DNA of 64,000 bases from Streptomyces sp. Je 1-369 (lineage in GTDB: Bacteria; Actinomycetota; Actinomycetes; Streptomycetales; Streptomycetaceae). The stretch lies in NCBI RefSeq assembly GCF_026810505.1, contig NZ_CP101750.1, forward strand, positions 6,808,515 through 6,872,514, in the 5' to 3' direction. The translations under genes were made by a program, and so were the position numbers. Shown piece by piece: positions 48,790 through 52,706 of this stretch; position 1 is the stretch's first letter; each line of letters begins with the position of its first letter. The notes beneath the pieces are model-generated. The model searched no databases and had not been told where the DNA came from. It was given only the letters and a program-made list of their open reading frames with translations.

Positions 48790-48861
48790 TTTTGAAGCGA
48801 CTGATTCAGAATGTGCTAGCGTCCGGCCTTGTTCGTTCGTTCTGGAGCACTTGCTTCAAAA
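48790..48861 (+). promoter_or_regulatory. Candidate promoter and inverted repeat upstream of the MFS gene
   Basis: TTGAAG (48792-48797) and TAGCGT (48817-48822), 19 bp apart, form a possible -35/-10 pair. TTTTGAAGC (48790-48798) is repeated as its complement GCTTCAAAA (48853-48861), so the promoter region is flanked by inverted copies, possibly two operator halves or a looped site. Confidence 0.4.
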
Positions 48862-48876
48862 AAGGGGGCCGCCTCC

Positions 48877-50127
48877 ATGCCGCTCGCGGTGTACATAATC
48901 GGGCTGGGCATCTTCACCCAAGGAACCTCGGAGTTCATGCTGTCCGGCCTCCTGCCGGGCATGGCCGACGACCTGGGGGTCTCCATCCCCGACGCCGGGC
49001 TGCTCATCTCGGCGTTCGCGATCGGCATGGTCGTCGGCGCCCCGCTGCTCGCCGTAGCCACCCTCCGGTGGCCGCGGCGCACGGCGCTCGTCTCGTTGCA
49101 GGCGGCCTTCGTCGCGGCGCACGTCGTCGGCGCGCTCGCGCCCGGCTACGCCGTCCTGTTCGTGACCCGCGTGATCGGCGCCCTCGCGTACGCCGGGTAC
49201 TGGGGCGTCGCCGTCGCCACCGCGGTGGCGCTCGTCCCCGCGGACGCCAAGGCACGGGCGGTCGCCGTGGTCGCGGGCGGGCTGACGCTCGCCACCATCG
49301 TCGGCGTCCCCGCGGGCACGCTGCTCAGCCAGGTCTCCGACTGGCGCGCCGCGTTCTGGGCGGTGGCGGCGGCCACGGCGGTCAGCGCCGTCTGCACGCT
49401 GCTCTTCGTCCCGGGCGGCAGGGGCGGCAGAGTCAGCAGGGGGGACCGGGACGGCCGGGGTGCGGGCGAGCAGCCCTCCGTCGGGGCCGAGCTGCGCGCC
49501 ATGGCGCGACCGCAACTGTGGCTCTCGTACGCTGTGACCGCCTTCGCCTTCGGCGCCGTCATCGTCACCTTCAGCTATCTGGCGGCCCTGCTCACCGAGG
49601 TGACCGGGGTCCCCGAAGGGTGGGTGCCCGCCGTCCTCGCGCTGTTCGGCGTCGGCGGGATGGCGGGCATCGTGATCGGTGGACGCACCGGCCAGACGCG
49701 GCCCCTCGGCACGCTCGGCGCGGGGCTCGGCGCCCTCGCCGTCTTCTCCGCGCTGCTCGCGCTGACGGCACACGTCACGGCCGTGGTGATCGCCCTGGTC
49801 CTCCTGCTCGGCTTCGTCGGCTACGTCACCAACCCCGCCCTGCAGTCACGGGTGTTCGCCCTCGCGCCGGGCGCGCCCACGCTGGTCGGCGCGACCAACA
49901 CGGCCGCGTTCAACGTCGGCAACACGGTCGCCCCGCTCCTCGGCGGCCTGGCCATCGACGCCGGGCACGGTTACGCCTCCGTGGCCTGGGTCGGTGCGGT
50001 GCTGGCCGCCGTGGGTGCGGCGGGCGTGCTGTGGGCGGCGACTCTGCAGCGGGCGGAGCGGGAACGGGTGGAGCGGGAGCAGGCGGAGGACCCGTTTTGT
50101 ATGTGTGTTCCAAAACGTCTACCGTAG
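48877..50127 (+). CDS. MFS efflux transporter (Cmx/CmrA-type drug exporter)
   Basis: 416 residues from ATG 48877, with AAGGGGG upstream; an ATG 48 bases earlier lacks family features. Twelve membrane segments. Signatures of the chloramphenicol/drug-efflux group: GLGIFTQGTSEFMLSGLLP in the first segment, GAPLLAVATLRWPRRTAL, and GVPAGTLLSQVSDWRAAFW (motif C region). Exports a small hydrophobic compound. The last codons contain the inverted repeat before the TetR gene, and the atropopeptide genes follow, so it could export their product. Confidence 0.85.
   Translation: MPLAVYIIGLGIFTQGTSEFMLSGLLPGMADDLGVSIPDAGLLISAFAIGMVVGAPLLAVATLRWPRRTALVSLQAAFVAAHVVGALAPGYAVLFVTRVIGALAYAGYWGVAVATAVALVPADAKARAVAVVAGGLTLATIVGVPAGTLLSQVSDWRAAFWAVAAATAVSAVCTLLFVPGGRGGRVSRGDRDGRGAGEQPSVGAELRAMARPQLWLSYAVTAFAFGAVIVTFSYLAALLTEVTGVPEGWVPAVLALFGVGGMAGIVIGGRTGQTRPLGTLGAGLGALAVFSALLALTAHVTAVVIALVLLLGFVGYVTNPALQSRVFALAPGAPTLVGATNTAAFNVGNTVAPLLGGLAIDAGHGYASVAWVGAVLAAVGAAGVLWAATLQRAERERVEREQAEDPFCMCVPKRLP
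50093..50117. promoter_or_regulatory. Inverted repeat CGTTTTG-N11-CAAAACG, candidate TetR operator
   Basis: A perfect 7-bp inverted repeat with an 11-bp spacer, spanning the end of the MFS gene and ending 14 bp before the TetR start. Position and symmetry suit autoregulation by the downstream TetR protein. Confidence 0.6.
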
Positions 50128-50131
50128 GCCC

Positions 50132-50710
50132 ATGGCGAGACCCCGAGAGTTCGATGAGGACCGCGTCGTCACCGCGGCCATGGAGACGTTCTGGCGCCAC
50201 GGGTACGAAGCGACCTCGACGCGCGATCTGTGCGACAGCACGGGGCTCGGCCCCTCCAGCCTCTACAACACCTTCGGTGGGAAGCGGCAGCTCTACCTCC
50301 GTGCCCTGCGGCGCTACCACGACACCGCCACCGCGGAACAGGTCGAGATCCTGCGCGGCGACGGGCCCGCCAAGGAGCGGCTGCGCGCCATGATGATGCA
50401 CGCCGTCGACGCCGACCTCGACGAGACGGGGACGCGCGGCTGCTTCGCCGTCAACGCCGCCATGGAGGCCGCCGGGTTCGACCCGGAGGTCAGGGAAGCG
50501 GTGCGGCGCAGCTTCGACCGGGTCGAGGACGAGCTGTGCGCGGTCGTCGAGGCGGGGCGCGGCGCGGGGGAGATCCGCGCCACGGGTGACGCCAGGGTCG
50601 TGGCCCGCCGGGTCCAGAGCACGTACTACGGCCTCCGTGTCCTCAGCCGCGTACAGGACGACCGCGAGGTGCTCCTCGCCACGGTGGACGGCGCGCTCGC
50701 CGACCTGTGA
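50132..50710 (+). CDS. TetR/AcrR-family transcriptional regulator
   Basis: 192 residues from ATG 50132. N-terminal helix-turn-helix (about 8-50): VVTAAMETFWRHGYEATSTRDLCDSTGLGPSSLYNTFGGKRQLY, split by the typical GxxxTS turn. The C-terminal ligand-binding part includes GCFAVNAAMEAA. Follows the MFS gene by 4 bp and probably represses it; ends 146 bp before the atropopeptide precursor gene, so a role in that locus is possible. Confidence 0.88.
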   Translation: MARPREFDEDRVVTAAMETFWRHGYEATSTRDLCDSTGLGPSSLYNTFGGKRQLYLRALRRYHDTATAEQVEILRGDGPAKERLRAMMMHAVDADLDETGTRGCFAVNAAMEAAGFDPEVREAVRRSFDRVEDELCAVVEAGRGAGEIRATGDARVVARRVQSTYYGLRVLSRVQDDREVLLATVDGALADL

Positions 50711-50856
50711 CTGCGTGCGTGCGCGCGCATGCGGCCCGCTGACGCTCCGCTCACGCGCTTCGCGTTGCCGTTTATCGGACGTTGATCGGGCGGGTCGATG
50801 CTTCTTCGCAGGTTCATGTCCGGCATGGACCGACGGAAACGACCGGAGGTATGCAC

Positions 50857-50937
50857 ATGAAGGTTGTCCGCTCCCTCAAGAAGAAGATCACCGGCGAGAA
50901 GAGCCTCAAGGCGTACGCCTGGTACCACTGGTACTAG
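50857..50937 (+). CDS. Atropopeptide (tryptorubin-type) RiPP precursor peptide
   Basis: 26 residues from ATG 50857, with GGAGGT 6 bases upstream (an ATG at 50851 abuts that site and is less likely). The peptide starts MKVVRSLKKK, continues KSLKAY and ends AWYHWY directly at the stop. Tryptorubin A is the hexapeptide AWYIWY cut from the C-terminus of such a precursor and cross-linked between aromatic side chains by one cytochrome P450. Here His replaces Ile, and a P450 gene starts 107 bp later. The match of core, basic leader and partner enzyme makes this assignment firm even at this length. The exact leader cleavage site is inferred. Confidence 0.88.
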   Translation: MKVVRSLKKKITGEKSLKAYAWYHWY

Positions 50938-51044
50938 GCCGACCCTGCTCTCGACCGTAGGGACGTAATGCGCCGTTGAGGTCCGCGCCCGGCGTGCCGC
51001 GAACCGGCCGCCGGGCCCGGGCCTCCCGCTCTGGGAGACCCCCG

Positions 51045-52100
51045 ATGTCCATTTCCGGCACCGACCGGCTCGCGCGGACCACCGTCTTCACGCCGCGACT
51101 CGACGCCCTGCTGCGCGACCACCGCGGCCAGGACGTGTTCCGCCTGGACGACGACACCGTCGGCGTCGCCGGGCCCGCGATCACCGACCAGATCCTCGCC
51201 GCACGGCCCGCCACCGAGCGTGAACGCCCCACCTTCAAGCCGCTGCACGGGCGTTCCATCCCGCGCACCGAGGCCGCCACGGTCATGCAGGCCATCGGCC
51301 GTGACGTGCGGGCGGCGCTGAAGAAACCCGTGCCCGGCCGGCTCGACCTCTCCGGGGAGTGGCCGCACGTCGGCCACGTGTACCTGCGCGATCTGATCCT
51401 CGGCGCCGACCCGTACCGGCTGCGCATCCTCATGGACCGCACGCTGGAGCTGACGCCCAAGCTGACGTGGACGGTCATCGCGACCGGCGCCGCCCTGCCC
51501 GGCAGGCTCCGCCCCGGCGCGCCCGTCACCAGCATCGCGAGCCTCACCGCGAACGCCACGACCTACAGCGACCGCCGCTACGCCATGGGCCTGTACCGGC
51601 GCGCGGCCGCCCCCGTCTGCTTCACGGTCTCCACGCTCGTCGCCAACGCGTACTGGCTCGGGGCGCCCTTCGACGACGCGACACCCAACGAGCACATCCT
51701 GTACGAGTCCATGCGGCTGCTCCCGCCGTCCTGGAACATCCTGCGCAACGCGTCCCCCGAGTACACCGCCCTCGACGACCGCATCGGCACCGGCGACGAC
51801 GTCCTGCTCCTGCCCCTGCTCAGCCACCGCGATCCGGAACTCTGGGACGATCCCGACGTGTTCCGCGCCGACCGGTGGGCCACCCTGGACCCCGACGACC
51901 ACCCCGGCTACCTCCCGTTCGGCCACGTCTCCGAACGCTGCTGGGGCCGTCACATGGTGATGCCCCTGGCCGGCATGCTCCTCGACGTCCTGCGCGCCGA
52001 GGGCGCGACGGTCGACCCCCGCCAGACCACGGCGAAGGTTCCGCTCGCGGGTCTGCTCGGTGTCGACAAGGTGCGGCTCGTGCGGGCGGGCCGAGCGTAG
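51045..52100 (+). CDS. Cytochrome P450, predicted atropopeptide cross-linking enzyme
   Basis: 351 residues from ATG 51045 (GGGAG upstream), short for a P450 (usually about 400). ExxR is E221-SMR-224, followed by PPSWNILR. The meander has FRADRW (273-278), and the haem loop is PFGHVSERCWG with ligand Cys299. The usual I-helix acid/alcohol pair is not evident; FTVSTLVANAYW lies where it would be expected. The protein presumably forms carbon-carbon and carbon-nitrogen bonds between Trp/Tyr side chains of the precursor core. It needs a ferredoxin and reductase, none of which is encoded here. Followed by a terminator at 52125. Confidence 0.88.
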   Translation: MSISGTDRLARTTVFTPRLDALLRDHRGQDVFRLDDDTVGVAGPAITDQILAARPATERERPTFKPLHGRSIPRTEAATVMQAIGRDVRAALKKPVPGRLDLSGEWPHVGHVYLRDLILGADPYRLRILMDRTLELTPKLTWTVIATGAALPGRLRPGAPVTSIASLTANATTYSDRRYAMGLYRRAAAPVCFTVSTLVANAYWLGAPFDDATPNEHILYESMRLLPPSWNILRNASPEYTALDDRIGTGDDVLLLPLLSHRDPELWDDPDVFRADRWATLDPDDHPGYLPFGHVSERCWGRHMVMPLAGMLLDVLRAEGATVDPRQTTAKVPLAGLLGVDKVRLVRAGRA

Positions 52101-52403
52101 GAGTGTGAGCAACACCGCACTCCGGGGCGCCAGTTGTGCACTGGCGCCCGACCGGCGTGACAGGGCATGGTGGGAGTTCGGACGCAGGGAGTGATGAGCA
52201 TGGCTGCGAACTACCGGCGCATGAGCGCCCGTTCTCACGGGAAGTGACCCCGGTCGCCGGGGCCGGCCCCGGACGCAGCCCTGCCACTGACCCACGTCGG
52301 ACGCGTCTCCGTCGGCCACTCGGCATCCCGGATCCCGGATCCCCTGACCGGATCATCGGATCCCGACCTTCACCCGCTCCGGCCTGCCGACGGAGGAACC
52401 GCC
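52101..52403. other. 303-bp intergenic region after the P450 gene
   Basis: Contains the terminator at 52125-52149. A 17-codon frame at 52194-52247 with GGGAG just upstream is too short to trust. The rest, up to the small membrane-protein gene, shows no recognisable feature. Confidence 0.5.
52125..52149 (+). terminator. Terminator after the P450 gene
   Basis: GGGCGCCAGT (52125-52134) pairs perfectly with ACTGGCGCCC (52140-52149) around a TGTGC loop, 24 bp after the P450 stop. Defines the end of the precursor-P450 transcript. Confidence 0.75.
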
Positions 52404-52583
52404 ATGACCACCATCCTCATCGAACTCGCCGCGGGAACCCCTGAGTTCCTGCTCGCCGCTGTCGTCGTGATCGCCGTGACGTTCCTGGCCGCCCTCGCCA
52501 TCGCGGTCCGGGGCACGGCCCCCGAGGAACGCGAGGCCGTCCTGCGTGCCTTCGCCCAGATCCTGCCGATACGACGAAGATAG
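52404..52583 (+). CDS. Small single-helix membrane protein
   Basis: 59 residues from ATG 52404, with GGAGG 7 bases upstream. Residues about 13-36 form one strongly hydrophobic segment (PEFLLAAVVVIAVTFLAALAIAV), followed by a charged tail ending PIRRR. No family recognised. It follows the atropopeptide genes in the same direction but beyond their terminator, so it is probably a separate unit. Confidence 0.6.
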   Translation: MTTILIELAAGTPEFLLAAVVVIAVTFLAALAIAVRGTAPEEREAVLRAFAQILPIRRR

Positions 52584-52706
52584 GGGCCGGGTGAACGTGC
52601 GGGCCGGCCGACGAGAACTGCGTTCACGCGACGTATCCCCAGGCGTAATCGCAGCTGCTTGGATGTGCGGGCCCGCAGCAATCATCCCCGCCCCCAAGGA
52701 GTCTCC

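Follow-up and report, generated by a model that had tools for sequence, protein, structure and literature searches.

Streptomyces sp. Je 1-369 carries what we read as a complete two-gene atropopeptide locus, in which one P450 is predicted to cross-link the core AWYHWY into a tryptorubin analogue whose histidine at core position 4 (His4) is likely an unbridged passenger; we put the probability of this reading at about 86%. The locus lies in a 64,000-nucleotide stretch of DNA (contig NZ_CP101750.1), hereafter the window, and its features are collected in Table 1. As a minimal RiPP pathway it is clean and complete, and it belongs to a known class, that of tryptorubin A, whose core we take to be AWYIWY.

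Table 1. Features of the locus, in window coordinates
Feature	Position	Strand	Basis
Cassette of about 1.9 kb that two relatives lack, with 55-58 bp in its place	50711..52600	.	G123 (L153), G280 (L155)
Shine-Dalgarno site GGAGG, 7 nt 5' of precursor ATG	50845..50849	+	Read from sequence; conserved in three aligned sister loci
Precursor gene, 26 aa, MKVVRSLKKKITGEKSLKAYAWYHWY	50857..50937	+	ORF reading; NCBIfam NF038372 match; single match in own genome
KSLK leader motif, residues 15-18	50899..50910	+	Sequence; motif defined in PMC11450843
Core AWYHWY, residues 21-26; His codon 50926-50928	50917..50934	+	Sequence; cores vary at position 4
P450 gene, 351 aa; ExxR residues 221-224, haem Cys 299	51045..52100	+	Pfam p450; relatives; invariant residues; P450 fold
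Two hairpins after P450 without a T run; possible transcript end	52100..52149	+	Folding; no consensus terminator

The precursor and P450 genes

The first-pass annotation described an 81-bp gene with a ribosome site and a product ending in AWYHWY, and this description holds: the frame runs for 26 codons to a stop at 50935-50937. An alternative in-frame ATG at 50851 (MHMK...) sits only 1 nt 3' of GGAGG and is missing from two of the three aligned sister loci (absent in G081 and S. silaceus, present in WAC 01529), and for these reasons ATG 50857, giving 26 residues, appears the better start. Counting both strands, the window contains a single WYxWY-stop string, compared to approximately 8.6e-5 occurrences expected from base composition. 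NCBIfam model NF038372 ("tryptorubin family RiPP precursor") matches the peptide across profile positions 1-26 of 26 at 56.2 bits (curated cut-off 33; E = 3e-15), and its own genome has this one match to the family. The existence of that model, together with the "tryptorubin family RiPP precursor CDS" records mentioned in PMC11450843, weakens the earlier expectation that so short a gene would probably be unannotated.

The P450 gene follows after 107 bp, as first noted. Its Pfam p450 match covers residues 218-304 only; among the best 120 of 427 protein matches, relatives reach 92% identity, and the ten nearest are 348-354 residues long. Glu221, Arg224 and Cys299 are invariant in all 34 aligned sequences. 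A structure model computed from 34 sequences (mean pLDDT 77.2, pTM 0.79; pLDDT below 50 at residues 1-8 and 61-70) matches whole P450 structures, with an EryK mutant (3zkp) on top at TM 0.62, and comparison of the sequence with solved structures gave weak matches only (best 36.6 bits). The model is usable for assigning a P450 fold, not for docking; judged by alignment and model, the predicted P450 is complete.

Membership in the atropopeptide family

According to PMC11450843, atropopeptides are recognized by a family-type P450, KSLK or a close variant in the leader, and Trp at core position 2, and members of the bitryptide subfamily by an xWxxWx core. All of these features are found here: the P450 is adjacent, KSLK is present (at residues 15-18, compared to 17-20 in the precursors of that paper), and Trp occupies positions 2 and 5 of AWYHWY. 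Biarylitides are similar in that P450s link aromatic side chains to one another, including that of His (PMC12352619), but they derive from a five-residue precursor encoded by an 18-bp gene (PMC13417212) rather than one of 26 residues, and the P450Blt structure (8u2m_B) is only a distant P450-fold match to our model (rank 29, TM 0.49).

Samples of the genus and family and a DNA-pattern scan supplied 93 precursor rows, and removal of 9 repeats left 84 distinct loci. Loci were picked by precursor alone, so their P450 neighborhood is not circular; the motif used demanded Trp2 and a KSLK-like string, and the invariance of both is therefore partly built in. The same motif missed one locus (L022) that reads KNLK and has the core AWYIWY. 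Matches of the NF038372 type (E <= 0.001) were found in 44 of 392 genus genomes (42 of them over the cut-off), 41 of 297 family genomes and 2 of 396 phylum genomes, the last two both in the window's own genus; the three samples overlap. Wider genome sampling yielded no precursor loci beyond those collected.

In every one of the 93 rows a homologous P450 follows the precursor, on the same strand and at a distance of 49-218 bp, 57.9-93.1% identical to the window P450 (its own row excluded; in four rows the P450 is truncated by the end of the extracted stretch). The window P450 is placed within the tree of these precursor-adjacent P450s (82 rows; L060, with core AWYHWY, and L118 were omitted as too short, and L055 is identical to L010), and not with unrelated P450s, a grouping that the first-pass annotation had held would count against its proposal. 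These comparisons strongly indicate that the window locus is a member of the known tryptorubin (atropopeptide) family.

Predicted product and number of bridges

The closest known systems are tryptorubins A and B (try and lau), which share with the window a KSLK leader, an xWYxWY core and a precursor followed by one P450, and in the case of tryptorubin A a two-gene layout (PMC11450843). They differ in having Ile at core position 4, where the window precursor has His, and lau possesses a second P450, where the two-gene unit of the window has one. The lau mass given in PMC11450843 is consistent with an AWYIWY core.

We propose that the leader would dock on the P450 through KSLK, that the P450 would then install the same bonds as in tryptorubin, joining Trp to Trp, Trp to Tyr and Trp to the backbone, and that a general host protease would release the hexapeptide, perhaps also trimming Ala1. 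The product is likely a rigid cross-linked peptide carrying histidine, with a predicted [M+H]+ at minus 4 H of 921.3678 for AWYHWY or 850.3307 for WYHWY. Our computed mass for WYQWL minus 4 H, 791.3511, is the same as the calculated value in PMC11450843. The earlier advice to look for the hexapeptide mass less hydrogens for each cross-link needs care as a rule: varsorubin B1 contains three new bonds, yet four protons are reported lost (PMC11450843).

According to PMC11450843, one P450 can yield two bridging patterns from one core, and the position of a P450 in the tree may poorly predict structural novelty. The window P450 could install fewer bridges than are found in tryptorubin, for instance a single Trp-Trp bridge as in scabrirubin, followed by trimming to a tetra- or pentapeptide; both scabrirubin and varsorubin B2a are single-bridged, and scabrirubin also loses residues from both termini (PMC11450843). 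We consider this outcome unlikely. The window core equals AWYIWY except at position 4, and AWYIWY with LauB1 gives the three-bond product tryptorubin B (PMC11450843); a P450 of S. laurentii, which need not be LauB1 itself, is 71% identical to the window P450. Scabrirubin (sca; core TWFIWYS) belongs to the same family, and the P450 adjoining a TWFIWYS core in our collection (L117) is 63% identical to that of the window. ScaB differs in forming a single Trp-Trp C-N bridge, and since it is a single-bridge and different enzyme, its bridging is not directly transferable to the window P450.

Cassette borders and possible control elements

Two relatives, G123 and G280, have an empty site. In these genomes the end of the TetR gene (window 50710/50711) is followed by 58 and 55 bp, respectively, and then by sequence matching the window at 52604 and 52593; the stretches taken from them contain no P450, and neither genome has a precursor match. 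To judge from this alignment, the cassette comes and goes as one unit between conserved genes, and it contains the two genes, flanking non-coding DNA and one small ORF. This ORF (52404-52583, +) would encode 59 residues with a hydrophobic stretch (MTTILIELAAGTPEFLLAAVVVIAVTF...); it has no Pfam match and, among the loci compared, a relative only in S. silaceus (L062, 78% identical).

The MFS transporter (48829-50127) and TetR regulator (50132-50710) genes upstream were considered as cluster members and rejected: both are kept in G123 and G280 without the cassette, and the ADI95-17, huiliensis, A0642 and G023 loci show no flank match of >=120 bp. The two genes, both on the + strand, persist with or without the cassette and likely form an efflux pair. 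The Exo_endo_phos gene (Pfam) that follows the cassette is likewise outside the unit.

Absence from G123 and G280 could also indicate that the locus is silent or decaying, and a consensus sigma-70 scan, which covers Streptomyces poorly, found no promoter at the locus. Either state is nonetheless improbable, as both frames are intact, the haem and K-helix residues are retained, and the six core codons are invariant across six sister loci, codon 24 of G081 excepted. Over the full 26 codons of these six precursors, 9 positions differ; 4 show synonymous changes alone, and the other 5 change the amino acid, at residues 3, 4, 10, 19 and 24.

The terminator annotated after the P450 stands in part. 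Two strong hairpins are present at 52100-52123 and 52125-52149, with a folding energy of -38.7 kcal/mol (z = -3.1) over 52098-52170, but they lack a run of T, and no terminator at the locus fitted the consensus in the scan. Upstream of the precursor, the string TTTATCGG-N2-GTTGATC (50771-50787, +) starts 83-86 bp before the ATG in five of the six own-clade loci. The sixth, G44, has the GTTGATC half only, and the full string occurs in none of the 78 other upstream stretches (of 84). It was rejected as a family-wide promoter motif, being confined to the window's own clade, where it could reflect shared ancestry; a clade-specific control site is possible.

Histidine at core position 4

Core statistics were drawn from Streptomycetaceae only. 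Over the 84 loci, position 4 is Ile in 26, Leu in 16, Gly in 15, His in 13, Phe in 11, and Ala, Arg and Val in 1 each. Among the 80 six-residue cores its entropy is 2.41 bits, with Tyr3 and Trp5 constant (Trp2 also, though the motif required it). The codon at this position is NNC in 82 of 84 loci, Leu being CTC in 14 of 16, and the choices Ile, Leu, Phe and His are separated by one or two base changes.

The core AWYHWY accounts for the 13 His loci, behind several different leaders, and for 6 of the 45 matches in the genus sample (L022 counted). A scan for its coding pattern in one genome per species (84,980 species) gave 40 matches in 36 stretches, of which 8 end KSLK-like precursors, all in Streptomyces (WAC 01529, G44, silaceus, sk2.1, ADI95-17, A0642, huiliensis and RPT161), and 32 do not. 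By eye, the leaders before AWYHWY fall into four or five types (MK-x-x-RSLKK..., MKFLF..., VKLLFALKDKLTP..., MKVLFAIRDAVRG... and MAKKIREAIFGA...). On the P450 tree, 7 changes are required to explain the 12 His4 rows, well-supported branches force at least 5 of these, and a single His4 clade is rejected (AU p = 9e-29). His is not exceptional in this respect: Ile requires 13 changes, Leu 8, Phe 7 and Gly 2. Position 4 is thus, on the evidence of cores and tree, a freely changing slot with no His-specific story. The earlier proposal of a tryptorubin-analogue locus survives in its pairing of a family precursor with a family P450; His4 as its distinguishing feature does not, given 13 of 84 loci, several origins and the ScaB precedent described below. 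Because AWYHWY is shared by several Streptomyces, the window locus is an addition to a known kind and not a new system. The strings "AWYHWY" and "WYHWY" are absent from the main texts of both PMC11450843 and PMC12352619; the 685 precursors listed for PMC11450843 may well include AWYHWY.

The ScaB precedent concerns the same position. ScaB accepts the mutant ScaA-I25H as well as a native precursor giving WPHWY, MS/MS of the native set assigns the bridge to residues 1 and 4, which are the two Trp, and ScaA-W26H gave no product (PMC12352619). Since position 4 is variable and ScaB tolerates His there, with the bridge assigned to the two Trp, His4 is by analogy most likely a passenger.

The window's own clade provides a closer comparison. 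Six P450s sit on one starred branch, five with His4 and one, G081, with Ile4; the leader of G081 is the same as that of the window except for A19S, and its P450 is 93% identical. Its nesting among His4 rows suggests a His-to-Ile change in G081, although one inner fork is unstarred (100/77). Flanks are collinear, with gaps, over window kb 45.0-60.0 in G081, 48.8-57.4 in WAC 01529, 40.2-57.9 in G44, 48.9-53.7 in silaceus and 48.8-59.8 in G247. The window locus and G081 therefore form a natural matched His/Ile pair, offering a direct test of whether core residue 4 changes the bridges. With the same His core found behind other leaders elsewhere, the value of the locus is comparative.

P450 residues were also screened for columns that track core residue 4. 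Within a clade of 55 rows, Ile195 is restricted to rows with Ile4 (7 of 15 compared to 0 of 40), as is a residue other than His at position 68 (6 of 15 compared to 0 of 40). These candidates were rejected: when labels were evolved at random on the tree, a column as good as the best one arose in 38.5% of 400 Ile4 runs and 13% of 300 His4 runs.

It is very improbable, in our estimate, that in this recurrently evolved core the imidazole joins the cage, whether bonded by the P450 to a neighboring Tyr or Trp in the manner of biarylitides or holding a metal. The window product, unlike that of its Ile4 sister, would in that case be a tryptorubin that is bridged through histidine or binds metal, and an atropopeptide of a new kind. 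Other RiPP-family P450s do bridge His and Tyr (PMC12352619) and the core recurs on several branches, but other residues change about as freely at position 4, G081 has Ile4 with a leader that differs only by A19S and a 93% identical P450, ScaB bridged Trp-Trp with His in place and failed when a bridging Trp became His, and no P450 column tracks His4 beyond phylogeny. The altered cross-linking or metal binding first suggested for the imidazole finds no support in these sequences.

Two further sets of sequences were met during the scans. Precursors L053 (Streptomyces sp. RPT161, - strand), L080 and L081 form a divergent group with RSFK or PSLK as leader motif, two of the three scoring under the NF038372 cut-off; the RPT161 precursor, found by DNA pattern only, has the core AWYHWY and reads MAKKIREAIFGARSFKRVAWYHWY. 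In Shouchella (L033, L034, L045, L051, L065), the AWYHWY coding pattern is multi-copy, as (I)AW(V/I)RSWAWYHWY close to the beginning of ORFs 77-338 residues long, and represents repeated sequence unrelated to the precursor locus.
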